Source: an uncultured bacterium (GTDB taxonomy: Bacteria > Patescibacteriota > Saccharimonadia > Saccharimonadales > Saccharimonadaceae). Taken from it: 64,000 nt of DNA. The stretch lies in contig CACWJA010000002.1 of assembly GCA_902761145.1 (NCBI GenBank), positions 124,001 through 188,000 of the forward strand, read 5' to 3'. Below are positions 54,718 to 64,000 of this stretch, piece by piece. The notes beneath the pieces are model-generated. The model saw nothing but the letters and a program-made list of their open reading frames with translations. It had not been told where the DNA came from and did no database searches. The position numbers and the translations under genes were made by a program. The stretch's first letter is position 1; each line of letters opens with the position of its first letter.

Positions 54718-56454
54718 ATGAGTGATTCAATAAAAAAGCGTGGGCAAAGATTCTTGAGGAATGTTTTTCGTGTCACTTCACGAGCAAGTGAAGATAGTAA
54801 AGAACACATAAAAGACAATTTGATCGGACGCGTATCGCACATCCATAGTATTCGACTCTTAATTCTAGAGTGGGGGCTGCTGGTGGCTGCATTGATATTG
54901 CTTGCTATTACACAATCTATGTGGTTTATAGAGTCCTACGCGGAAGATGTGTTTGCTAGTGGTGGTAATTACACAGAAGCTACTTTAGGGGAAGTTAATT
55001 CGCTAAATCCGCTGTTTGCTACCACAAATAGTGAACGTATACTAAGTAAACTGTTGTTTGCAACTATTTCTGCGACAGATTACTCTGGACATCCAGGTAT
55101 AGGTCTAGCCGAATCAATACTGCCAAGCGAAAATGGCAAGGTATGGACTATGCACTTAAGAGAGGGACTAAAGTGGTCCGATGGGCATCCAATAACAAAT
55201 GAGGATGTGATATTTACACTTGATCTAATAAAGAGCCCCGCCGTAAATTCTGTATATGATTCTAGCATTTCAAATGTAGAAATAACAGAAAACGACAATG
55301 GAGACATAGTATTTTCTCTTCCAACAATTTATGCTGATTTTGTTTCTGCACTAAATATACCAGTAGTTCCAAAGCACGAGTTAGAAGACAGCGATCCTAG
55401 AAATTTGATTGAGGACACTTTTTCTAATGCTCCAATTACTTCTGGTGCTTTTAGCTTTAACGCACTACAATCCGTGCCTAGTAGCAACGAAAAGGTGTAT
55501 TATTTGTCGGCAAATCCATATTATTATAAGGGTGAGCCCTTGCTGAGTAGTTTTGCTGTGCATACTTATAGTGATAAGGAGTCGATCATTGGAGCATTAA
55601 ACAGCGGGACAGTAACGGCGACAGCAGAGCTGTCCGGAGCGGATAGTTCCAAGATAACAGCTGGGCAGTATCAGCAAAAAGATTCTAGCATTAGTTCTGG
55701 AGCATATATATTTTTCAATACTTCCAGCTCATCTTTAAAGAAATCTGAGTTTCGCGCGGCGATCCGCCAGGGTATAGATATCGAAAAAATTCGTGAAGCC
55801 GCACCTGATACTACAGATTTAGATTATCCACTTTTGGCATCCCAGATCGAGTTGACAGCTTACCCAGAGATCCCAGGCAAGGATGTAGAATCGGCAAAAA
55901 CAAAAATATCTGAGTTATCCGGTGACGATTCCGTCGGCTTGGAGATTGCCACTGTTAATTCCAGGTATTTACCCGAAGTTGCAGATGCATTAAAAGCTGA
56001 ACTAGAATCCTTGGGAGTACAAGCACACGTATCGATATATGAGGAAAACCAAGATTTTATTAATAACATCATTAGCAAGCGTAGCTATGACATATTGTTA
56101 TACGAAATAGAGCTCGGTGCCGATCCAGACCTGCTGCCTTATTACCACTCATCCCAGACATCTGGAGCAGGCCTGAATTTATCTAATTATCGCAATGCAT
56201 TAGTGGATGATCTACTGTTGGGAGCAAGAGACACTCTAGATGAGGCGCTGCGAGCTAAGAAGTATGAAGCATTCCTGGAATACTGGGTGAACGACGTTCC
56301 AGCCATTGGAATCTACCAGCCATCTCTTACTTATTATTATAACCGCAATGTCCGAACGTTCAGTAATAACGTACGGTTAGTCACGCCGCTGGATAGATTT
56401 ACTGATATAACAAGCTGGGCAACAGTAAAAGAGACCAAGAATAAAACCCCGTAA
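54718..56454 (+). CDS. Peptide/oligopeptide ABC transporter substrate-binding protein (SBP family 5), membrane-anchored
   Basis: A basic N-terminus and one transmembrane helix (IRLLILEWGLLVAALILLAIT) anchor a DppA/OppA-type domain outside. Family signatures are YTEATLGEVNSLNPLFAT, MHLREGLKWSDGHPITNEDVIFTLDLIK and FRAAIRQGIDIEKI, plus the C-terminal SYDILLYEIELGADPDLLPYYHSSQ. Anchoring by a helix instead of a lipid fits CPR bacteria. The permease genes are not next to it. Peptide uptake would suit a host-dependent organism. Confidence 0.9.
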   Translation: MSDSIKKRGQRFLRNVFRVTSRASEDSKEHIKDNLIGRVSHIHSIRLLILEWGLLVAALILLAITQSMWFIESYAEDVFASGGNYTEATLGEVNSLNPLFATTNSERILSKLLFATISATDYSGHPGIGLAESILPSENGKVWTMHLREGLKWSDGHPITNEDVIFTLDLIKSPAVNSVYDSSISNVEITENDNGDIVFSLPTIYADFVSALNIPVVPKHELEDSDPRNLIEDTFSNAPITSGAFSFNALQSVPSSNEKVYYLSANPYYYKGEPLLSSFAVHTYSDKESIIGALNSGTVTATAELSGADSSKITAGQYQQKDSSISSGAYIFFNTSSSSLKKSEFRAAIRQGIDIEKIREAAPDTTDLDYPLLASQIELTAYPEIPGKDVESAKTKISELSGDDSVGLEIATVNSRYLPEVADALKAELESLGVQAHVSIYEENQDFINNIISKRSYDILLYEIELGADPDLLPYYHSSQTSGAGLNLSNYRNALVDDLLLGARDTLDEALRAKKYEAFLEYWVNDVPAIGIYQPSLTYYYNRNVRTFSNNVRLVTPLDRFTDITSWATVKETKNKTP

Positions 56455-56489
56455 TTGGTTAACATTATAAAATAAGCTTGACTTTTATA

Positions 56490-56609
56490 CTAATCTGTGA
56501 TCTTCTCGATAATGGCTGGGCTTAAATTTTTAGTTTCAGAAGTTTTACCAATAGTTATCGCCAATTCGTTCTTTAATAGATTAGCTAGATTATATTTATT
56601 AAACCTCAC
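56490..56609 (-). pseudogene. AbiEii-type toxin gene remnant (N-terminal 39 codons)
   Basis: From a GTG overlapping the antitoxin stop, the frame reads NLANLLKNELAITIGKTS and LSPAIIEKITD then TAG. AbiEii toxins (nucleotidyltransferase fold) begin with a helix of this kind and a motif like LSPxxIEKDYWVT. The match is short, so this is inference from both sequence and position. Confidence 0.45.
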
Positions 56610-56916
56610 AAATCTTCTTTATTACTTCGTAAATCCAATTCGTAGTAGGCTTTGCTTCGATTAGTAGCTTCTCTTTTTCTGCGGGCGAAGTTTTTTCGGC
56701 TAATTGGTTAATAATATCTTTCGAAATATGTTCAGGACCTAAAGCCTTGATAGCTTGAATGACAAGCATCGTTTTTCTCGACATGCCGTTTAATTCTCGG
56801 TCTACGCGATGGATAAAACTAATGGAACGATTGCCGACTTGATAACTTTTTGTGTCGCCACTACTAAGATATTCCCACTTTGCCGGAACTTGCATAGAAA
56901 AACCGAGTAAACTCAT
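56599..56916 (-). pseudogene. AbiEi/DUF6088-type antitoxin remnant (C-terminal part, 105 aa)
   Basis: Reads LGFSMQVPAKWEYLSSGDTKSYQVGNRSI, RVDRELNGMSRKTMLVIQAIKALGPEHI and the closing EKEKLLIEAKPTTNWIYEVIKKI. These fit the C-terminal half of AbiEi-like antitoxins of type IV toxin-antitoxin loci. The N-terminal winged-helix part is missing. AAGGAG before ATG 56916 might still allow translation. It overlaps the toxin remnant as AbiE pairs do. Confidence 0.55.
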
Positions 56917-57107
56917 ATTTTTCTCCTTAAATCCATTAAGCCACATGTCAGGAAAATTGGGTAGTTTTCATGACAAAATATCAACAAATACGCTACGAAC
57001 TTTGATTATGAAAAACCTTGGGCCAAGAATAGCATGGTGTGGACGTAAATGCTAAATTATGGTATAATAAAAGAAGTACATTAACATGGCCGAAAGGGGG
57101 AAATTCT

Positions 57108-58292
57108 ATGATTAGACTATTGAAGCCGGCAATCGAGCGAAGATACGATGCCGCGGAAAACGGCATAGGAACACGGAAAAGGGCGGCTGAAGATATCTGC
57201 CGTTTCCTCGAAGCAAATCCGAGAGTCGCCTACGATATGCCACTCGAACGCGAATGCTATTATAGCGCCTGCAAAAATCTGCTTAGGGATAGAGATTCTG
57301 AAAGAATCCTGTTATATCTCCCATTAAGATTTCTCGAAGATGCTCCAGAAACGTTCAAGAAAGCATATCGCGATGCATGGTACAGGCTTCTCAACACAAG
57401 AGATGTACGTGAAAACTTCCATACCGGCGACTGCTTCGAACTCGATGCTAGGCCGCGCGGCGGACTTGAGCGCGTAGTAAAATGCGTTCACCTCACGCCA
57501 TGGTTGCTCAAGTATGGTTACATTAATGAGCGACAAATCCTGAGGATCCTGAGAGAAAATAGCGACGATGAAGTTTTGCTCCAAAGTTTTAAAGACACCT
57601 GGAAATACATTCGTGTGAATAAAATCCTGGGGAGTGAAGATTTATACCAGCTTACTTCAAAAACAGCTCATTTGCCCGTCAGAAAGAAACCAGAACCGCT
57701 CTATGTTTCAAAAAAGCGATTAGAGTGGCTCAATGAGCGCAACAAACCAGCAGAGCTTTTAACGCCCTCGGCTAAGCTTGAGGGACCGTTCTCAGATAAT
57801 ATACCAGCAATTGAGGCTCAGCTTGAAGAAATTGCGGCACGACTAAAACCGTCAGAAATCGTATTGGTCGGTGGTTCGCAACTTAAAGGTTACGGGACTA
57901 CAAACTCCGATTTGGATGTTTGGAGTTATAACAAACTACTATCCAGTATTGCGTCCCAGCCCGGAAATCCGCATACTGTCCATATTTGTTTCAACACAAT
58001 ATGGCTTGGCGGGAAAGATGTAAACATAGAAGAATTGGAACGTTTCTCTGACTTATTATCTGGTAATTATACCGAATATGCAAAAATCGCCACTAAACTC
58101 CACAGGCGCCAAGCAATTGAGCGCCTAGAGAGCGATTTGCTCCAATACAGACTGTTGCATAAAGGTTTCTCCAGGTTTACTGGCATAGACGAGTTTTATA
58201 TTCCGCCGGAGATGGATGGTGATTGCCCGTTCTATGTCGATGAATACCGTCGAATCGCAACCATGCTTTATGCAAAATACGTTTGGCTTTAA
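57108..58292 (+). CDS. Nucleotidyltransferase-fold protein with long helical N-terminus (394 aa)
   Basis: ATG 57108 lies 8 nt after GAAAGGGGG; TATAAT near 57063 is the -10. Residues 1-235 are helical and unassigned (Arg-rich, RERECYYSACKNLLRDRDSER-like). Around residues 250-268 is a Pol-beta/MNT-type nucleotidyltransferase motif (VLVGGSQLKGYGTTNSDLDVW: GGS plus SDLDV). A third acidic residue is likely in KDVNIEELE. Such enzymes transfer nucleotides to proteins, RNA or small molecules. It faces the GC-rich operon and shares a terminator with it. Linkage to that system is only suggested. Confidence 0.72.
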   Translation: MIRLLKPAIERRYDAAENGIGTRKRAAEDICRFLEANPRVAYDMPLERECYYSACKNLLRDRDSERILLYLPLRFLEDAPETFKKAYRDAWYRLLNTRDVRENFHTGDCFELDARPRGGLERVVKCVHLTPWLLKYGYINERQILRILRENSDDEVLLQSFKDTWKYIRVNKILGSEDLYQLTSKTAHLPVRKKPEPLYVSKKRLEWLNERNKPAELLTPSAKLEGPFSDNIPAIEAQLEEIAARLKPSEIVLVGGSQLKGYGTTNSDLDVWSYNKLLSSIASQPGNPHTVHICFNTIWLGGKDVNIEELERFSDLLSGNYTEYAKIATKLHRRQAIERLESDLLQYRLLHKGFSRFTGIDEFYIPPEMDGDCPFYVDEYRRIATMLYAKYVWL

Positions 58293-58300
58293 GGTCATGA

Positions 58301-58331
58301 AAAAGGCCCCCGAAAAGGGGGCCTAATTTTA
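58301..58331. terminator. Bidirectional terminator
   Basis: GGCCCCC-GAAAA-GGGGGCC flanked by A5 and TAATTTT, between convergent genes. Confidence 0.9.
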
Positions 58332-58347
58332 TAGGTGCGTTGATTTC

Positions 58348-59541
58348 TTACAGGACACGCTTGCCGGTCAGACCGGTCATGCCGGTGGCATCACCGCCGC
58401 CCAGCTCGTTCCAGTTGATCTGAGTACCCAGCTGCCACAGCGCAACGAAGTAGTTGACCTCCACATCGGAAGTAACCGTGTCGTGCTTGGCGAACGCCAG
58501 AACGTACTTGACCAGATTCTGCTCCAGACGGATGTAGTTGCTGGAAACGCTCGCGCCGATCTTCTTCAGCATCATCTCGCGGTTCTTCACGCCAATCATG
58601 GACGGCAGGCGGGTATCTTCCAGAGTATTGCGGATAACGTTCGCGTCGTAGGCCATAGCGGCCGCAACCTGAACGCCAGTACCACGGAAAATGCGGTTGA
58701 TGGAATCGACCAGCGTGTCGCCGGCGTCATGCAACTGAGCCGTGTCGGGCGGAGTAATCATACTCATACCCGCGGCACCACCGCTGAAACCGCCGCCGAT
58801 AGCCGCGATCAGCATAGAGGGGTCAGAGAAGCTTGCGCGCCAGGTCTGATACCAGCCGTCCAGCGTACGATAGCTTTCGGCGATTGCCGGCCACAGAGTG
58901 TTGCGGATACGACTCAGGAACTCCTTACGGCGTCCTTCCGTGATAAAAGTGCCGTCCAGACCATCAATCGCGGCGAAGATGTCGCCATAGGCACGACGCG
59001 TCAGAGACTTACGCAGAGCGTAGAAGGTCGGGTCGACCTGTTCTTCGGTCTCATCAGCATACTTCTCCATTTCCTTGGAGAGAGCGTCGGGAACATTGTA
59101 GAGTCCAGCACGGTCAGCCAGAGCCGCACGAATAGCGGCGATGTAGGACGATTCGTCCACCTTTAAGATACCGCCGGTCTTCAGGGCATTCAGCCAGGAT
59201 TCGTCGGTCGGGATGGACGGAAGCAGAGCCTCGAACTGGCTCTGAATCGCACGCGTTTCCGCGGCGGCCACAGCCGGAGCGGCGGCAGGCTTTGCAGCGG
59301 CCTTCAGCTCGCTCAAGAGCTTGCGGGCCTTTGCCAGCTTCATGCCGGCGCCGGTCAGATCAGCAACTTCCAGAGAAGTCAGATCATCGATATCTTCAAC
59401 GCCGAGATCATTCACGACTTTGTCGATCGTAGCTTCATCGGCGCCGTATTCGGCGAGCTTGGTGCGCACTTCGCTTGCGACAGGAGCCGCAGCAGGTTCG
59501 GTTTCAGCCTCGGGAACAACTTTCTTGATTTCTTCACTCAT
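58348..59541 (-). CDS. Unknown protein with HhH/SAM-like N-terminal domain (397 aa), last gene of the GC-rich operon
   Basis: An acidic and Ala/Pro-rich start leads to a small helical domain, residues about 25-80 (LAEYGADEATIDKVVNDLGVEDIDDLTSLEVADLTGAG...). It resembles an HhH or SAM fold by its helix-Gly-helix spacing. An Ala/Pro linker follows, then a helical region about 100-300 and a Gly-rich segment (AAIGGGFSGGAAGMSM). The C-terminus ends GGGDATGMTGLTGKRVL. No enzyme motif seen. GGAGGAAAAACCC precedes ATG. GC content is clearly higher than the chromosome around it. Probably a structural or adaptor component. Confidence 0.75.
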   Translation of the reverse strand: MSEEIKKVVPEAETEPAAAPVASEVRTKLAEYGADEATIDKVVNDLGVEDIDDLTSLEVADLTGAGMKLAKARKLLSELKAAAKPAAAPAVAAAETRAIQSQFEALLPSIPTDESWLNALKTGGILKVDESSYIAAIRAALADRAGLYNVPDALSKEMEKYADETEEQVDPTFYALRKSLTRRAYGDIFAAIDGLDGTFITEGRRKEFLSRIRNTLWPAIAESYRTLDGWYQTWRASFSDPSMLIAAIGGGFSGGAAGMSMITPPDTAQLHDAGDTLVDSINRIFRGTGVQVAAAMAYDANVIRNTLEDTRLPSMIGVKNREMMLKKIGASVSSNYIRLEQNLVKYVLAFAKHDTVTSDVEVNYFVALWQLGTQINWNELGGGDATGMTGLTGKRVL

Positions 59542-59555
59542 GGGTTTTTCCTCCT

Positions 59556-60875
59556 TTAATTTTTATTCGAGCTGACTTTGTCTAGCTCGGTTGGCCCAAT
59601 TGAGAGTAATTTAAGCGGAACTTTTAAGAACCCTTCGAGAGTATTACCGACGAATTCGAAAAGTTCCTGCTTATGGATAGGTTTCTTGATGGAATATTCA
59701 ATTGTGTTAGGCTTAGCCTTCTTGAGAAAATCAACATACGATTCATTGGTCGCTGGTGCATTTTTATAATTGACGCAAAGCGGCCAAATACGATCGCACG
59801 CCAAAATCTGGTCAAACCAGGTAAGGCAAAGCCCGTCAAATGGAGTATCACTACTCATGTTAAGAGCATATCGCAAAAGATTCAAATCAAGTGCTCCGGC
59901 ACGGATAATGCCTTGCCAGCGATTTTCATCCTTGTGACTGCCCGGGAGCATCCGTGCCGTGAACTCCGGATCATAAGTCGGCATTGGGCCGGCTCCATGA
60001 CGGATTTCATAGGCACGATGGATGGCGTAATTGATTATTTCACCGTCATACCCAGCTGCTCTCAACATCTCCATAGTGAACTTTGGGAGAGTTCTGATCG
60101 CGCTTACGTGGGGCTTTAACCCTGTCTCTGCGTCGGTCAGAACTCCATGCGAACATTCGACGACAGCTACACCATCACCCTTTAGAACCTCGCTCAAGCT
60201 TTCTAAACGAAGCTTCTTGCCTACGTCTTCGAATAAATCGAGGCAATACGGCAGGAATCCGTCGTCATAAAGCAAATCAAGATTCTCGGCGATTAGCTCA
60301 GCGTCACCAGGTAAACCATCTTCTTGAGAGATTCTGGCATACCTTTCTCTGTAATAATCGAGCTGTTTTTGGAGTTTAATGCGGACAACCTCACGGTTCC
60401 GAAGCTCAGAGGCCCGAATCGTTGCTTCTTTGCCCAAAGCATTATGCATACGATAGGCTTGTCCAACACCAGTTCCAATCGTGCCGCGCGGATTATTCCT
60501 AAGCAGAAGCTCCTCAAGTTGAGAAGAAATCCGATGAAAAGGCGTAGCACAAATACAGGACGGGTCGACACTTAAAAGCGTGAATGGGTCATAGATTCCG
60601 AGCCGCTTTAAGGCTTCCGATTCGTTGCCGAGCCCAACTGGCGAAATTACCATTTGCTCGGAAAGAAAAGTTGGTACCCCCTCAAACGTTCCGCAACCCC
60701 ATTGTGAGAAATTGAAGCTTTCTCCGTAGGAAGTGCGTACGCCATGAGAGCCTTGTGCGCCACCGCGCTTAATGATGACTGAAGCGTCAAAATTGCGCGA
60801 GAGTGCGTGTACTACGCCGCCCTTGCCTCCATCACCCGGACCGAGGTCAGTAACGACATAAATTTTCTCAAGCAT
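59556..60875 (-). CDS. Divergent adenylosuccinate-synthetase-like enzyme (439 aa)
   Basis: ATG 60875 is set by AGGAGGTG 6 nt upstream. The fold is PurA: residues 7-22 VVTDLGPGDGGKGGVV correspond to the GTP loop GDEGKGK, keeping Asp15 and Lys18 but not Glu. H44 (GAQGSHGV) replaces the NAGHT His. GTIGTGVGQAYRMH matches GTTGRGIGPAY, RHGAGPMPT matches the GPFPTE region, and RAGALDLNLLRYALN matches RCGWLDLVxLRYA. PurA joins aspartate to IMP. Here the altered loops and the operon with kinase-like and vWA genes suggest a different substrate, as in DNA-base or phage PurZ-type relatives. De novo purine genes are not nearby. Confidence 0.82.
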   Translation of the reverse strand: MLEKIYVVTDLGPGDGGKGGVVHALSRNFDASVIIKRGGAQGSHGVRTSYGESFNFSQWGCGTFEGVPTFLSEQMVISPVGLGNESEALKRLGIYDPFTLLSVDPSCICATPFHRISSQLEELLLRNNPRGTIGTGVGQAYRMHNALGKEATIRASELRNREVVRIKLQKQLDYYRERYARISQEDGLPGDAELIAENLDLLYDDGFLPYCLDLFEDVGKKLRLESLSEVLKGDGVAVVECSHGVLTDAETGLKPHVSAIRTLPKFTMEMLRAAGYDGEIINYAIHRAYEIRHGAGPMPTYDPEFTARMLPGSHKDENRWQGIIRAGALDLNLLRYALNMSSDTPFDGLCLTWFDQILACDRIWPLCVNYKNAPATNESYVDFLKKAKPNTIEYSIKKPIHKQELFEFVGNTLEGFLKVPLKLLSIGPTELDKVSSNKN

Positions 60876-60941
60876 AACACACCTCCTAGAGTCTGTAAAA
60901 ACCAAGTTGTTAACAGATCTTGATTGCTGGAGGAGCCGAAC

Positions 60942-60967
60942 GAAAAGAAAAACAAGTTTTTCTTTTC
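60942..60967. other. Perfect 12-bp inverted repeat inside the GC-rich operon
   Basis: GAAAAGAAAAAC-AA-GTTTTTCTTTTC lies in the 115-nt gap between the vWA and adenylosuccinate-synthetase-like genes. It may be an mRNA hairpin or a weak terminator modulating the two downstream genes. Confidence 0.6.
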
Positions 60968-60990
60968 TGAGGCGACGCTCAGCATTCTAC

Positions 60991-62076
60991 TTACAGATAC
61001 TCAATACGATCCGGAGATTCCACGGACTCATCGTCACCAGAGGCTTCTCCCGGCTGAATCGGCCAGGTATCACCCTTATTGGCGAAGACGTCGCCCGCTT
61101 TGGGAACCGGATGCGGCAACGCATGACGAAGTTTCGCCTGCGCGCCGATGTCGATGCTGGAAAGCTGAGCAATCAGCTCAGGACTTGCATGGGCGCCACC
61201 CAGATGTTGCTTGAGGCCAGTAACGTCCATCGTCCCCTCGGTCAAACCGATGATGGCAGAAATGACTGCCGGCAGCTGACGCGTGGAATCGATCTTGATC
61301 ACCGACTTTTCGCCGCAGAGATCACGCCAAAAATCAGCGGTGTCGTGTGATTTGACGACCAAGATAAACTGGTGCGACTTCTTCTTCAGCTCTTCGATCA
61401 TCTTCTTCATCGTGGGAACTTTTCTCATGTTTTTCAGCTCGTTGTTAAAGACTTCCTTGCCGAAAATGCGCTTGATATCCTCAAGATTAAGCCGGTCGTG
61501 ACAGATGGCGTCGGTTACGATGAAGTGATAGCCTTTAAGGCCGATACGATTGGTGTATGTGTCGGTCAGATAGGCACGAGCGAACATGGCGTACTGCGGG
61601 TCTTCCGGAAAATCTCCGCCGCCGCGCTGAGGCGCCATTTCCTTGAGGTAGTTCACGATCTTGGGCGCTTCCATCTCGAACTGCGGACGGCACATAACAA
61701 AATTGTCACAAACATCGCCGAAGATACCAAGACAAAGCTGCGGATCGTAACCCGGCAGAACTTTCGCCACGGCCTCATAGAGGTCGGGCAGAACTGCCAT
61801 CTCTGTATCGACTTCGCCGCCCATAGAGCCGGTGGTGTCGCAACTGACCTCGATGTCCATCGGACAGCCGAGCGTAGCAATCCACTTCTTCTGATGAGGG
61901 TTCAGGCGAATCTTCGAAAACCGCATGGGGTTCACCGCGGGATCGACGATCTCGCTGAGGTGTCCGGTGTCACGAGCGCGCTGTTCTGCCTTCTTGGTCA
62001 CACCACTGTCATGCGTTACGCCATAATCACGGCGTGCTGTGCGGTAGCTTTCTACCGAAAAAGTTTCTCGTCCCAT
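60991..62076 (-). CDS. von Willebrand factor A domain protein (361 aa)
   Basis: After about 70 N-terminal residues the vWA domain begins (MDIEVSCDTTGSMGGEVDTEM) with an intact metal-binding DxTGS motif near residue 80. GYHFIVTDAICHDRL probably supplies the later MIDAS Asp. The C-terminal roughly 90 residues are Pro/Gly-rich. No signal peptide or membrane span, so cytosolic. vWA proteins act as metal-dependent assembly platforms. In TerY-P-type conflict modules a vWA protein is encoded with a kinase, the pairing seen here. AAAGGAGG lies in the end of the upstream kinase-like gene, 4 nt away: translational coupling. Confidence 0.85.
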   Translation of the reverse strand: MGRETFSVESYRTARRDYGVTHDSGVTKKAEQRARDTGHLSEIVDPAVNPMRFSKIRLNPHQKKWIATLGCPMDIEVSCDTTGSMGGEVDTEMAVLPDLYEAVAKVLPGYDPQLCLGIFGDVCDNFVMCRPQFEMEAPKIVNYLKEMAPQRGGGDFPEDPQYAMFARAYLTDTYTNRIGLKGYHFIVTDAICHDRLNLEDIKRIFGKEVFNNELKNMRKVPTMKKMIEELKKKSHQFILVVKSHDTADFWRDLCGEKSVIKIDSTRQLPAVISAIIGLTEGTMDVTGLKQHLGGAHASPELIAQLSSIDIGAQAKLRHALPHPVPKAGDVFANKGDTWPIQPGEASGDDESVESPDRIEYL

Positions 62077-62079
62077 CTT

Positions 62080-62886
62080 CTAATCCTCCTTTATAGTTTT
62101 CCAAATGATGGTACTACGATCGCGATAAGTAAAAGGGTGGTACTGGATACCCCAAAGCCTTTCAACAAGGCGATAAAGGTCTCCGTGTGCTTCCTCAAAC
62201 GAATCGCAACCAAATTCCGAGAAATCCTTGAGCAGTTCAAGATATTCCTGCTCAGCGGGATCATCTCTGACAACAACCCAGTCGAGGATAAACTTTGAGA
62301 TGGCCTTAACAAAGTCATAAGCCACCACATCAGCCATATCCCCAGAGAAGTTGTAGTAGATCAAACGATGTCTTTCCGGTCCAATGAGATAATCATCGGG
62401 CGAGAAAATCGGGTATCTGACAATAGGATTGTCTCCATCAGCGGCTGACAGCTCGAAAAAGCTGTAGAACTTAAAGAAACGCCCCAGAATCCAGATACTG
62501 GTACGGGTGTCGATTTCGGCTTCAGCGTGAAGCTTCGTCAGAGGGATTAACTTGCTGAGGTCGACATCGGGTGTCGCGAAGACATTGATACGACGATCTC
62601 CCTGGGTAGATTCCATGAACGAGGACAACAGGTTCGCGAACAGCCAATCATAGTGGGAGTTGCTTCCGCCCTGGTCCGCCTCAAACTTCGCCACCTGTTC
62701 TTCGAAAGAGCGCAGAATATTGAATTTGCCGGCCTCCCGTGCGAGGATGTCGCCATCTTCAAATGTCTTCGCTACCTTCAAGATTACCGGTTGCTCGTCA
62801 TCCATCGTGCCAAGGTAGATACGGAACTTCGGGGCTTCGCCAATGCGAGACCCCACTTCGATATTCCTGACTCTCAATCTAATCAC
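62080..62886 (-). CDS. Protein-kinase-like fold, N-lobe recognisable, catalytic loop not found (268 aa)
   Basis: From GTG 62886 the sequence has a Gly-rich loop (EVGSRIGEAPKFRIYLG, residues 10-26), a VAIK-like Lys37 in PVILKVAKTF and a helix-C Glu51 in LAREAGKFNIL. The remaining 200 residues are helical. I do not find HRD or DFG motifs, only PERHRLIYYNFSGDMADVVAYD where the catalytic segment might lie. It may be a pseudokinase or a diverged small-molecule kinase. First gene of the operon, behind a TTGACT/TAAATT promoter with about 60 nt leader. The GTG start is tentative. Confidence 0.65.
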   Translation of the reverse strand: MIRLRVRNIEVGSRIGEAPKFRIYLGTMDDEQPVILKVAKTFEDGDILAREAGKFNILRSFEEQVAKFEADQGGSNSHYDWLFANLLSSFMESTQGDRRINVFATPDVDLSKLIPLTKLHAEAEIDTRTSIWILGRFFKFYSFFELSAADGDNPIVRYPIFSPDDYLIGPERHRLIYYNFSGDMADVVAYDFVKAISKFILDWVVVRDDPAEQEYLELLKDFSEFGCDSFEEAHGDLYRLVERLWGIQYHPFTYRDRSTIIWKTIKED

Positions 62887-62949
62887 TTCCTTTCCATAGT
62901 AGAATCAAGACATTAAATAACTATGCCCCGCGTACGGCGCATTATGCAT

Positions 62950-62978
62950 AATTTAGCATATTTAAGAGAAAAAGTCAA
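62950..62978 (-). promoter_or_regulatory. Promoter of the GC-rich operon
   Basis: On the minus strand TTGACT (62978-62973), 17-nt spacer, TGCTAAATT with -10 TAAATT at 62955-62950. Confidence 0.7.
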
Positions 62979-63019
62979 GCGTCTGACCGTTTCTGCCGCC
63001 AAAAACGCAAAAATCTAGT

Positions 63020-63105
63020 GGGACGTGGTATACTAGAATCGACTTCGAGTTAGAGATACTCTCGAAGCCCAAGTAATGCGGCAGTTGAAAAATTGCGCGT
63101 TTTTT
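63020..63105 (+). ncRNA. Leader or small-RNA candidate
   Basis: GTGGTATACT (-10) is followed by the hairpin CTTCGAG-TTAGAGATA-CTCTCGAAG and then GCAGTT-GAAA-AATTGC-GCG-T7, which looks like a terminator. It could be an attenuated leader for the gene at 63238 or a short RNA. The rest of the gap 62887-63237 shows nothing else. Confidence 0.4.
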
Positions 63106-63237
63106 TGTTTGCACGCATAAATACTAATTGCGGAGCGTTTATGTCACATCTAAGCTCGTAAACTCTATGAGTTAAGCAAGTAGTTTTAGACGCACTCTAT
63201 AAAACGTTAGACAATCTAAATTTTACAAAGAGAAACA

Positions 63238-63627
63238 ATGCGAAAGATCCAGAACAGCTTGACGTATTACATTGATGTCCGTCAAAACGAGCTTATTGAA
63301 GAAAAACTCCGCGTTAATGCTGCTATCAAAGCCAAGAAACGCCGTCAGGACAAATTAACCCAAGCTTTTATAGACCTCGGCAAAGACGCGCCAAGAGAAG
63401 CGAAACAGATGATAAACGAGCAGCTTGGGGAATGCCGGAACGATATAGCGATTTTGCAAACCGAGCGCGATGAAATTAACGCTAAGATCTTCGATCCAGA
63501 CCAGGTTCGCGAAATTATGGATGAGCTTACGAACCAGTTAGATTCCATCGGTGAAAAGATGGAATCTGCCGATTCTCGGCAAAAAAGACCCGTTGGCCAG
63601 AAATATGCTTACGAACTTAGAAATTAA
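63238..63627 (+). CDS. Coiled-coil protein resembling the C-terminal part of a large serine recombinase (129 aa)
   Basis: Nearly all helical and charged (LIEEKLRVNAAIKAKKRRQDKL, DIAILQTERDEINAKIFDPDQV, MDELTNQLDSIGEKMES). It has the heptad pattern of the coiled coil that follows the zinc ribbon in large serine recombinases. No catalytic domain is present. A weak AAAGAGAAAC precedes ATG. If the resemblance is right, it is a remnant of the element that brought the GC-rich operon. A free-standing coiled-coil protein is the alternative. Confidence 0.45.
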   Translation: MRKIQNSLTYYIDVRQNELIEEKLRVNAAIKAKKRRQDKLTQAFIDLGKDAPREAKQMINEQLGECRNDIAILQTERDEINAKIFDPDQVREIMDELTNQLDSIGEKMESADSRQKRPVGQKYAYELRN

Positions 63628-63638
63628 CAACAAAAAAT

Positions 63639-63666
63639 GAGGTCTCTTTCAGATGAAAGAAACCTC
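63639..63666 (-). terminator. Hairpin with terminator character on the minus strand
   Basis: GAGGTTTCTTTC-ATCT-GAAAGAGACCTC followed by ATTTTTTG when read on the minus strand. Confidence 0.5.
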
Positions 63667-63955
63667 TAAAGTATATATTTAACAATGCTTTGACCAGAGA
63701 ATTTCGGTCTGGTGCGCCAAATCCAAATATTTACGAACCACTCTGTAAGGTAATTGATTACGTAATTATGAACCCTGCATGGCGGCCTACTTATGTTTTG
63801 GTTGATAGGGTAATCGACCTCCAGTCAAGCGATTTCAACTATTAGTATTACGATAGCCAAAGATGCTACGAACTAATAACTGGTGCATAACAAGTTTGAA
63901 GGGTTCTCCATCAGAGCTAGCCAAGATTATAATAAACCTGAGCCTTCAAATTGCC
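63667..63955. other. Gene-free stretch at the window edge
   Basis: No gene longer than about 50 codons. A short plus-strand frame (GAPNPNIYEPLCKVIDYVI... ending at 63843) may be a gene remnant. An inverted repeat TTTGAAGG / CCTTCAAA spans about 63890-63950. Confidence 0.4.
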
Positions 63956-63983
63956 TTGACTTTTATCGGGGGGAGGATATAAT
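63956..63983 (+). promoter_or_regulatory. Promoter for a gene beyond the window
   Basis: TTGACT 63956-63961, 16-nt spacer, TATAAT 63978-63983, with AAGCATAAG following. Confidence 0.75.
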
Positions 63984-64000
63984 TAAAGCATAAGTTAAAG

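Follow-up and report, generated by a model that had tools for sequence, protein, structure and literature searches.

A mobile kinase-like, vWA and PurA-like gene module shared by Saccharibacteria, other bacteria and phages: layout, distribution and candidate functions

The cassette and its genes

The window considered here is a stretch of 64,000 nucleotides (contig CACWJA010000002.1, positions 124,001 to 188,000, assembly GCA_902761145.1) from an uncultured member of the Saccharimonadaceae, whose genome amounts to 872 kilobases (kb) and is 98% complete. It contains a cassette of five intact genes at 57108-62886, as read from the open reading frames (ORFs), among which a kinase-like, a vWA and a PurA-like gene form the module that is the subject of this report. 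Four of the genes lie on the minus strand (58348-62886), as a preliminary description of this DNA had proposed, and the fifth, overlooked in that description, is convergent on the plus strand. The start codon is ATG in four cases and GTG in one, always with a purine-rich stretch resembling a ribosome-binding site upstream. The closest relatives of the vWA protein beyond the window belong to Candidatus Saccharibacteria.

The first gene of the minus-strand block (62080-62886, GTG start) encodes a pseudokinase-like protein of 268 residues, which matches a PHROG family labelled 'kinase' (E = 1e-4) and whose family, as a profile, matches protein kinases (CK2). It is followed by a vWA-domain protein of 361 residues (60991-62076) with a metal site (MIDAS, DTTGSMG), assigned from an AlphaFold2 model, a structure match and invariant metal-site residues. 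The third gene (59556-60875) encodes a putative GTP-dependent ligase of 439 residues, related to PurA (PF00709, E = 5e-32) and set apart by clade and motifs; its start is probably the ATG at 60875, with AGGAGG upstream, and not the TTG at 60905, which is possible. The fourth (58348-59541) encodes an all-helical, Ala/Gly-rich protein of 397 residues, whose N-terminal part (about 22-90) appears SAM/HhH-like from its model and weak domain matches. Finally, the convergent gene (57108-58292, plus strand) encodes a Pol-beta-type nucleotidyltransferase-like protein of 394 residues (GGSQLKGYGTTNSDLDV), named from a motif recognised by eye and from its linkage to the cassette.

Between the convergent genes lies an intrinsic-terminator-like hairpin (58304-58324; 8 pairs, 7 of them G-C), which can act for the operon as well as for the convergent gene because T-rich tails are present on both strands. 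Ahead of the kinase-like gene, promoter-like hexamers are found on the minus strand (62950-62978; TTGACT-17-TAAATT, with TG before the second hexamer). The preliminary description had seen here a strong terminator and a single shared promoter. The GC-rich hairpin and the promoter-like site are indeed in place, but neither class of site is in excess in the whole region (8 terminator-like sites against 7.3 +/- 2.2 in shuffled sequences; 9 promoter-like sites against 6.7 +/- 2.6), so that the promoter is unproven, and a second promoter-like site precedes the PurA-like gene at 60899-60871.

A three-gene module conserved in bacteria and viruses

Loci were collected by the vWA protein family alone, taking the best 80 of 111 genome contigs and the best 80 of 95 viral contigs. 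After locus L128 (the same contig as L002) had been dropped from the counts, 159 loci were left: 26 from Saccharibacteria, four from or near Patescibacteria (one of them titled 'bacterium'), 50 from other bacteria (Chloroflexota, Actinomycetota and Planctomycetota) and 79 viral. Partner genes were sought up to 6 kb from the vWA gene, with profiles built from 6 to 11 early sequences; the Saccharibacteria loci L051, L053, L065 and L066 are on the same contigs as profile-training loci, and several viral contigs are near copies.

A PurA-like gene was found in 148 of the 159 loci and a kinase-like gene in 130, in every case on the strand of the vWA gene; eight of the 11 loci with no PurA-like gene are at contig ends. 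Where all three genes are present (n = 123), the order is kinase-vWA-PurA in 118 loci, vWA-PurA-kinase in four and vWA-kinase-PurA in one. Homologues are thus found together and in order, not scattered without synteny, and this conservation of gene order in other genomes excludes chance. Of the 26 Saccharibacteria loci, 25 have the HhH helical protein, which is missing from the other 133 loci. The nucleotidyltransferase lies on the opposite strand wherever it occurs, namely in all 26 Saccharibacteria and all four Patescibacteria-type loci, and was not found in the remaining 129, some of which end early; both genes are also present in L002, outside the count. Because these two partners are confined to the Saccharibacteria and Patescibacteria-type loci, the conserved unit is a module of three genes (kinase-vWA-PurA) with lineage-specific partners. 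A conserved gene set had been correctly recognised in the preliminary description, but its core is not the four-gene operon proposed there. The same gene order is kept from Saccharibacteria and Actinomycetota to mycobacteriophages, which implies that the module must do something selectable.

Some loci depart from this layout. In the Saccharibacteria locus L055 (6761-9073), only the vWA and nucleotidyltransferase genes of the cassette remain. An apparent kinase-vWA fusion in L122 was rejected, since the reading frame crosses a stretch of unknown bases. L074, L075 and L204, which have no recognised kinase-like gene, share a gene family near their vWA and PurA-like genes, in whose L075 member Pfam recognises an AAA ATPase domain. 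Another family lies near vWA genes in some Patescibacteria and on one phage contig (L023:13856-14893, L024:13150-14256, L026:7403-8338, L074:2036-2956, L075:15152-16084 and L201:8790-9740), and its member in L026 matches a pyruvate-kinase barrel.

The PurA-like enzyme

Nearly the full length of the PurA-like family profile can be aligned to PurA structures, with E values down to 4e-47. Its position was analysed in a 'quick' tree of 82 rows, comprising 64 module proteins, 14 canonical PurA and four PurZ-type proteins, with two long branches and the root placed by hand on canonical PurA; for the module rows, 151 proteins were thinned to 70 (55% identity), of which 62 were drawn at random and joined by the window protein and one Vibrio phage protein. 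The module proteins form a clade of their own, all 64 rows lying on one side of a branch whose support by the Shimodaira-Hasegawa-like approximate likelihood ratio test (SH-aLRT) is 100, while the 14 canonical PurA lie on one side of another branch (97) and the four PurZ-type proteins on one side of a third (99).

The same division is found in the motifs, counted in 148 module and 20 canonical proteins (the canonical TTGRxR pattern also being allowed V in first position). The GDxxKG motif, which includes the catalytic Asp and the P-loop, is present in all 148 module and all 20 canonical proteins, and the catalytic His and guanine-site Asp are invariant in the 11 rows of alignment A3. On the other hand, the aspartate-binding TTGRxR loop is found in none of the module proteins and in all canonical ones, NAGH in 2/148 against 20/20, and RHGxG in 146/148 against 0/20. 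In the aligned columns, xQG..R.G.(L/F)D stands in the module proteins at the place of TTGRxRRxGWLD of PurA, a new loop pattern (an aromatic or similar residue, Q, three residues, then R or K) being fitted by 135 of the 148, and the GTTG position is mostly occupied by HGSCG or RGT(V/I)G. By tree and motifs, the PurA family thus has a third branch in the module proteins, distinct from PurA and PurZ, and the diverged adenylosuccinate synthetase of the preliminary description is borne out.

From PurA enzymology, we take the kept residues to be those which move the GTP phosphate, and the changed ones to be those which bind aspartate and inosine monophosphate (IMP). Because the former are kept and the latter changed, the enzyme probably retains the GTP chemistry and would use a new acceptor and a new amine. 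Identity with PurZ was rejected, because PurZ carries Ser in place of the Asp that all 148 module proteins keep, and because the clades are separate.

As regards the other enzymes of purine synthesis, PurB was found in two of 40 genomes of the genus, one of them being the window's own, and, among the seven of these 40 that show a strong vWA match, in the window's own genome only. Neither PurH nor another PurA was found in the window's genome. Its PurB gene (G000:C7:26927-28327; L243, L276) lies in an apparently housekeeping setting, without canonical PurA or PurH.

The vWA protein and the pseudokinase

By sequence, the vWA protein has no match in Pfam or, as a profile, among PDB sequences. Its predicted structure (AlphaFold2, predicted local distance difference test, pLDDT, 93.8) matches an integrin beta chain (Z 15.4, root-mean-square deviation 2.9, 188 residues), and the metal-site residues D80, T82, S84, D121 and D189 are invariant in 48 sequences. 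The model thus confirms the Rossmann-like vWA fold, and the MIDAS-containing protein that had been read from the letters alone stands.

The kinase-like fold stands too, in so far as the family profile matches protein kinases, but the protein looks degenerate: in the window protein, which has no Pfam match at E up to 1, the Asp positions of both HRD and DFG are changed. Among 134 aligned kinase-like proteins, the HRD-Asp position holds Asp in 11; five of these come from Saccharibacteria and lack the preceding His. At the ATP site, Lys is retained in 46/46 aligned bacterial, 18/24 Saccharibacteria and 16/21 aligned viral proteins (35 viral proteins were not aligned). Furthermore, a J-domain HPD motif is found at the start of 41/47 bacterial, 48/56 viral and 2/2 named phage proteins, as well as 1/5 from Patescibacteria and 0/25 from Saccharibacteria; the window protein itself has no J-domain motif, unlike most of its relatives outside Patescibacteria. 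In the Mycobacterium phages Tonenili and Nappy, Pfam DnaJ matches the kinase-like proteins weakly (E about 0.001, below the cut-off). Taken together, the family consists mostly of degenerate pseudokinases, for the greater part of J-domain type.

Lineage-specific partners in the cassette

The fourth protein is modelled as entirely helical, with moderate confidence (pLDDT 68.6). Its N-terminus matches PF22931 with E = 0.002, below the Pfam cut-off; VIA-align relates positions of about 1-90 to SAM/HhH-type domains (Z up to 6.9) and 136-376 to AhlC/ClyA-type bundles (Z about 5), both too weak to be used, and a Foldseek search of PDB and viral models with the predicted structure returned no match at E<=0.001. 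The HhH-like label of the preliminary description is therefore kept as a likeness of the N-terminus, below the level of an assignment. Effector and nucleic-acid tether are both conceivable roles for the protein. The nucleotidyltransferase-like protein of the window has a Pfam match of its own at E = 0.036 only, and its relative in L022 matches PF18765 (Polbeta) with E = 3e-4, below the cut-off.

Insertion and mobility

The four-gene block has a G+C content of 51.9%, against 43.7% in the remainder of the window and a mean of 44.0% (standard deviation 1.7, maximum 47.5%) in 4.5-kb windows to its left. Across Saccharibacteria, the cassette is richer in G+C than its flanks in 22 of the 26 loci with a mean difference of 2.5 points, so that the large contrast seen in the window is not general.

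By flank comparison, the cassette lies in an island at 56455-64000 that is inserted, relative to congeneric genomes, into a core region and has its right edge outside the window, at ~65029. The left flank, which comprises a peptide-binding-protein gene ending at 56454 and the next 650 bases, is matched in part in 35 of the 40 genus genomes, the window's own included. Five of the 34 congeneric genomes with such a match were inspected, naming the genes from their translations, and the cassette is absent from the corresponding site in all five. In four of them two or three secreted-protein-like genes come after the peptide-binding-protein gene, and beyond these EF-Ts and ribosomal protein S2 are encoded; L237, the fifth, lacks the two secreted-protein genes and has S2 and EF-Ts ~2.5 kb on. 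A blastn search of the window's 54-64 kb against the five genomes matches only the end of the peptide-binding-protein gene, and in the window's genome (L242) the same downstream genes follow after the cassette, ~8.6 kb further on. In four other genomes, the cassette stands beside different genes (as named by reading), such as those for ribosomal proteins (L019) or glycolysis (L020 and L021), the glycolytic neighbours being borne out by a family scan for the same contig. Moreover, the vWA profile matches in 51 of 344 genomes of the family in GTDB, strongly (E<1e-30) in 39. Given the empty sites, the differing neighbours and this distribution, the cassette is mobile and patchy; its horizontal acquisition, first suggested on base composition, is supported by the higher G+C together with the site being empty in all five genomes.

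Two further pieces lie near the cassette. Within the island, a short DUF6088 protein (56599-56946), which matches only positions 89-161 of the 172 in the model, is perhaps the remnant of another mobile gene. To the right of the cassette, 63198-63718 (with a 129-residue ORF) recurs in a few congeneric genomes; two of these have both it and the peptide-binding-protein gene on one contig, which would suit a separate mobile piece.

Phage carriage

All five genes, in the same arrangement and with 76-93% protein identity, are found on a 30-kb contig of IMG/VR (IMGVR_UViG_3300028454_000294, our L002), which also carries, from translations read by eye, an apparent terminase, a lysozyme with LysM and a DNA methylase. 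The module is present on dozens of IMG/VR contigs, and the viral contigs bearing it reach 513 kb. Among named phages, the Bixzunavirus phages of Mycobacterium have the three module genes, likewise ordered kinase-vWA-PurA, as gp106-gp105-gp104 in Tonenili and gp260-gp261-(gp262)-gp263 in Nappy. The PurA-like protein matches 215 phage records, 189 of them of Mycobacterium phages, and the vWA protein 13, all of Mycobacterium phages; tblastn searches of named phages with the kinase-like, HhH and nucleotidyltransferase proteins found no match. The vWA gene of Nappy (gp261; L014:6903-8684) seems to be interrupted by an intein, its product having 593 residues against 340 in Tonenili, with Hint and Intein_splicing matches below the Pfam cut-offs and a vWA profile match of 322 bits. 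In the phage records looked at, the members of the module are annotated piecemeal, as 'hypothetical', 'kinase' or 'PurA-like'. Since laboratory phages of Mycobacterium smegmatis carry the module, genetic testing is possible now.

NUDIX and NAD-salvage neighbours

Accessory genes were scanned within 4 kb of the module (inner) and further out (outer), which in the bacterial loci amounts to 388 and 561 kb, respectively. A NUDIX gene is found in the inner zone of 43 of the 50 bacterial loci, always on the module strand, and in the outer zone of none, a control which under-detects other NUDIX families because the profile was trained on five linked proteins. NrtR-like NUDIX proteins with a winged helix are present in L108, L163 and L077, and in L101 a single ORF has PurA-like and NUDIX-like regions (named by reading and a 33-bit profile match). 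In the viral loci, NadV-type genes lie within 4 kb in 6/79 and in none further out. Two phage contigs have the module embedded among such genes: L163 carries NrtR, NadV, vWA, PurA-like, kinase and cytidylyltransferase-like genes, and L145 vWA, NUDIX, NadV, PurA-like and kinase genes. Because of these neighbours in bacteria and some phages, NAD and ADP-ribose appear to be the best lead for the chemistry of the module.

Genes of the ADP-ribosylglycohydrolase (ARG) family are also found near the module in the Saccharibacteria loci L057, L058, L059 and L061 (at about 15.8 kb), and on phage contig L201 (2305-3228), which has an EF-G-like gene.

Proposed function and alternative explanations

The gene order and the separate clade are shown by the data above; the product and the role of the module are inferred. 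The reading we tentatively prefer, giving it somewhat less than an even chance, is that the operon is the form taken in Saccharibacteria by a mobile module which phages also carry: a predicted GTP-driven ligase with its partners, linked to the metabolism of nucleotides and NAD in the conflict of phage and host. With GTP, the PurA-like enzyme would activate an oxygen of some nucleotide-like acceptor that is not IMP, and would then link this acceptor to an amine that is not free aspartate. Binding and positioning of the client may fall to the pseudokinase and the vWA protein, together with Hsp70 where a J-domain is present, and the NUDIX, NrtR-like or nucleotidyltransferase accessory might sense, make or remove the product. 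The setting would be a contest for nucleotide and NAD pools in which a phage is opposed by its host or by another phage; carriage by phages and patchiness fit such conflict, whether as defence (of the host, or against rival phages) or as counter-defence.

Several observations weigh against this proposal. The residue roles are presumed ones, carried over from the PurA literature, and 13 of the 148 PurA-like proteins do not fit the new loop pattern. A recognised kinase is missing in 23 of the 79 viral loci. As for the accessory genes, the NadV profile, like that for NUDIX, was built from five linked proteins; the NUDIX counts take no account of the close kinship among many of the Actinomycetota loci; and the one downstream-type NUDIX protein scanned, that of L110, barely reaches the Pfam NUDIX cut-off. 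In viral loci NUDIX genes are not enriched near the module (4/79 inner against 5/79 outer), Saccharibacteria give no signal (0/26 inner, 1/26 outer), and the window cassette has no NUDIX or NAD-salvage gene, as none of the 26 Saccharibacteria loci has within 4 kb.

A different view of the conflict is that of an antiphage defence or superinfection-exclusion cassette, in which the core triad would sense infection and the variable gene (HhH/nucleotidyltransferase, NUDIX or others) would be the effector. The patchy, mobile cassette, inserted among differing and mostly housekeeping genes, with strong vWA matches in 39 of the 344 family genomes, agrees with it, as does carriage by phages. Nevertheless, none of the five cassette proteins matches PADLOC at E up to 1, and the module is also common on viral contigs, even very large ones. 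The neighbours, scanned as 123 of the 151 neighbour proteins of at least 120 residues in 17 of the 26 Saccharibacteria loci, are mostly housekeeping among the 25 commonest families shown per library, with scattered defence matches: 36 PADLOC families match, and 21 of the 25 shown match one protein only, which is weak evidence either way. On balance, we regard defence as a serious though unlikely explanation.

More specific than the preferred ligase module, and unlikely, is the idea of a new kind of GTP-dependent ligase system, in which a PurA-fold enzyme with new pockets for acceptor and amine would attach a group derived from a purine or from NAD to a client, either a protein or a small molecule, held by the MIDAS vWA adaptor and an Hsp70-recruiting J-pseudokinase, the NUDIX or nucleotidyltransferase partner reading, making or erasing the product, and the whole acting as a weapon between phages and bacteria.

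A role like that of PurZ, with the PurA-like enzyme supplying phage DNA with a modified (deoxy)nucleotide, seems improbable. The PurA family and the large phages would suit it, and the enzyme carries the PHROG label '2-aminooxy adenylosuccinate synthetase', but the same PHROG matches the ordinary PurA of all 14 control genomes; GD is kept in every module protein against GS in the four PurZ-type proteins, the clade is separate, and the module is present on bacterial chromosomes, although its neighbours may include a dedicated polymerase or dNTPase. Less probable again is a chaperone unit for virion assembly or client folding, built on the J-domain and the vWA protein with the PurA-like protein as a scaffold: the J-domain motif of most relatives outside Patescibacteria and the position of the module in Bixzunavirus, where some 3 kb separate it from the terminase gene, speak for it, and the GDxxKG motif kept in all PurA-like proteins and the occurrence on bacterial chromosomes against it. 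We give slightly less weight still to a variant of the TerY-P phosphorylation switch. The kinase-fold gene does adjoin the vWA gene, but the TerY-P kinship proposed in the preliminary description fails in the strict sense: among the eight window proteins scanned there is no PP2C, the catalytic Asp is lost in most of the kinases, none of which in the window looks active, no zinc ribbon or OB-fold was matched in the window protein, and the partner is PurA-like instead. Finally, a spare PurA for ordinary purine synthesis, to which the PurB and the lack of another PurA in the window's genome might point, was rejected as very improbable, because PurB is rare in the genus (one of the seven vWA-bearing genomes), PurH was not found in the window's genome, and the aspartate and IMP loops of PurA are replaced.

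Comparison with known systems

With PurA (PF00709) the module enzyme shares the fold, the GDxxKG P-loop, the catalytic His and the guanine-site Asp, and it differs in that the TTGRxRR aspartate loop, NAGH, GTTG and RVG are replaced and in its separate clade. PurZ and PurZ0 of Z-genome phages are likewise PurA-fold enzymes found in phages, but PurZ has Ser for the catalytic Asp, as do the four PurZ-type proteins included here, and belongs to another clade. In the available part of PMC12884076, Ser replaces Asp in all 147 phage PurZ, these 147 form the PurZ group among 481 viral PF00709 proteins, and the non-PurZ homologues are not discussed.

The TerY-P triad, according to the portion of PMC11090510 at hand, consists of a vWA protein, a PP2C and a Ser/Thr kinase with zinc ribbon. 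The present module resembles it in the vWA (MIDAS) gene next to a kinase-fold gene, and differs in having no PP2C among the window's scanned proteins, a pseudokinase with J-domain motif in most relatives, and a PurA-like third gene. Systems of anti-ADP-ribosylation centred on ARG, with Nudix regulators and vWA chaperones, have been described (PMC9503650, as far as its accessible text goes). They have in common with some of our loci an NrtR-type Nudix protein together with a vWA protein, but the cassette has no ARG among the eight window proteins scanned; an ARG-type cluster lies near five of the other loci. The terms PurA, adenylosuccin and DnaJ are absent from the main text of PMC9503650, in the form available.

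In Bixzunavirus (for example Tonenili gp106-gp104), the three-gene module is the same, with no HhH or nucleotidyltransferase gene recognised beside it and with a longer kinase that has a J-domain-like start. No description of the module was found in searches of an open-access library, one in a subscription journal being possible; among the closest texts, PMC7824862 describes another system, in the part available. Set beside these systems, the module connects J-domain pseudokinases and vWA adaptors with what is probably nucleotide or NAD chemistry, and adds to the PurA family a third branch with testable predictions about its substrates.

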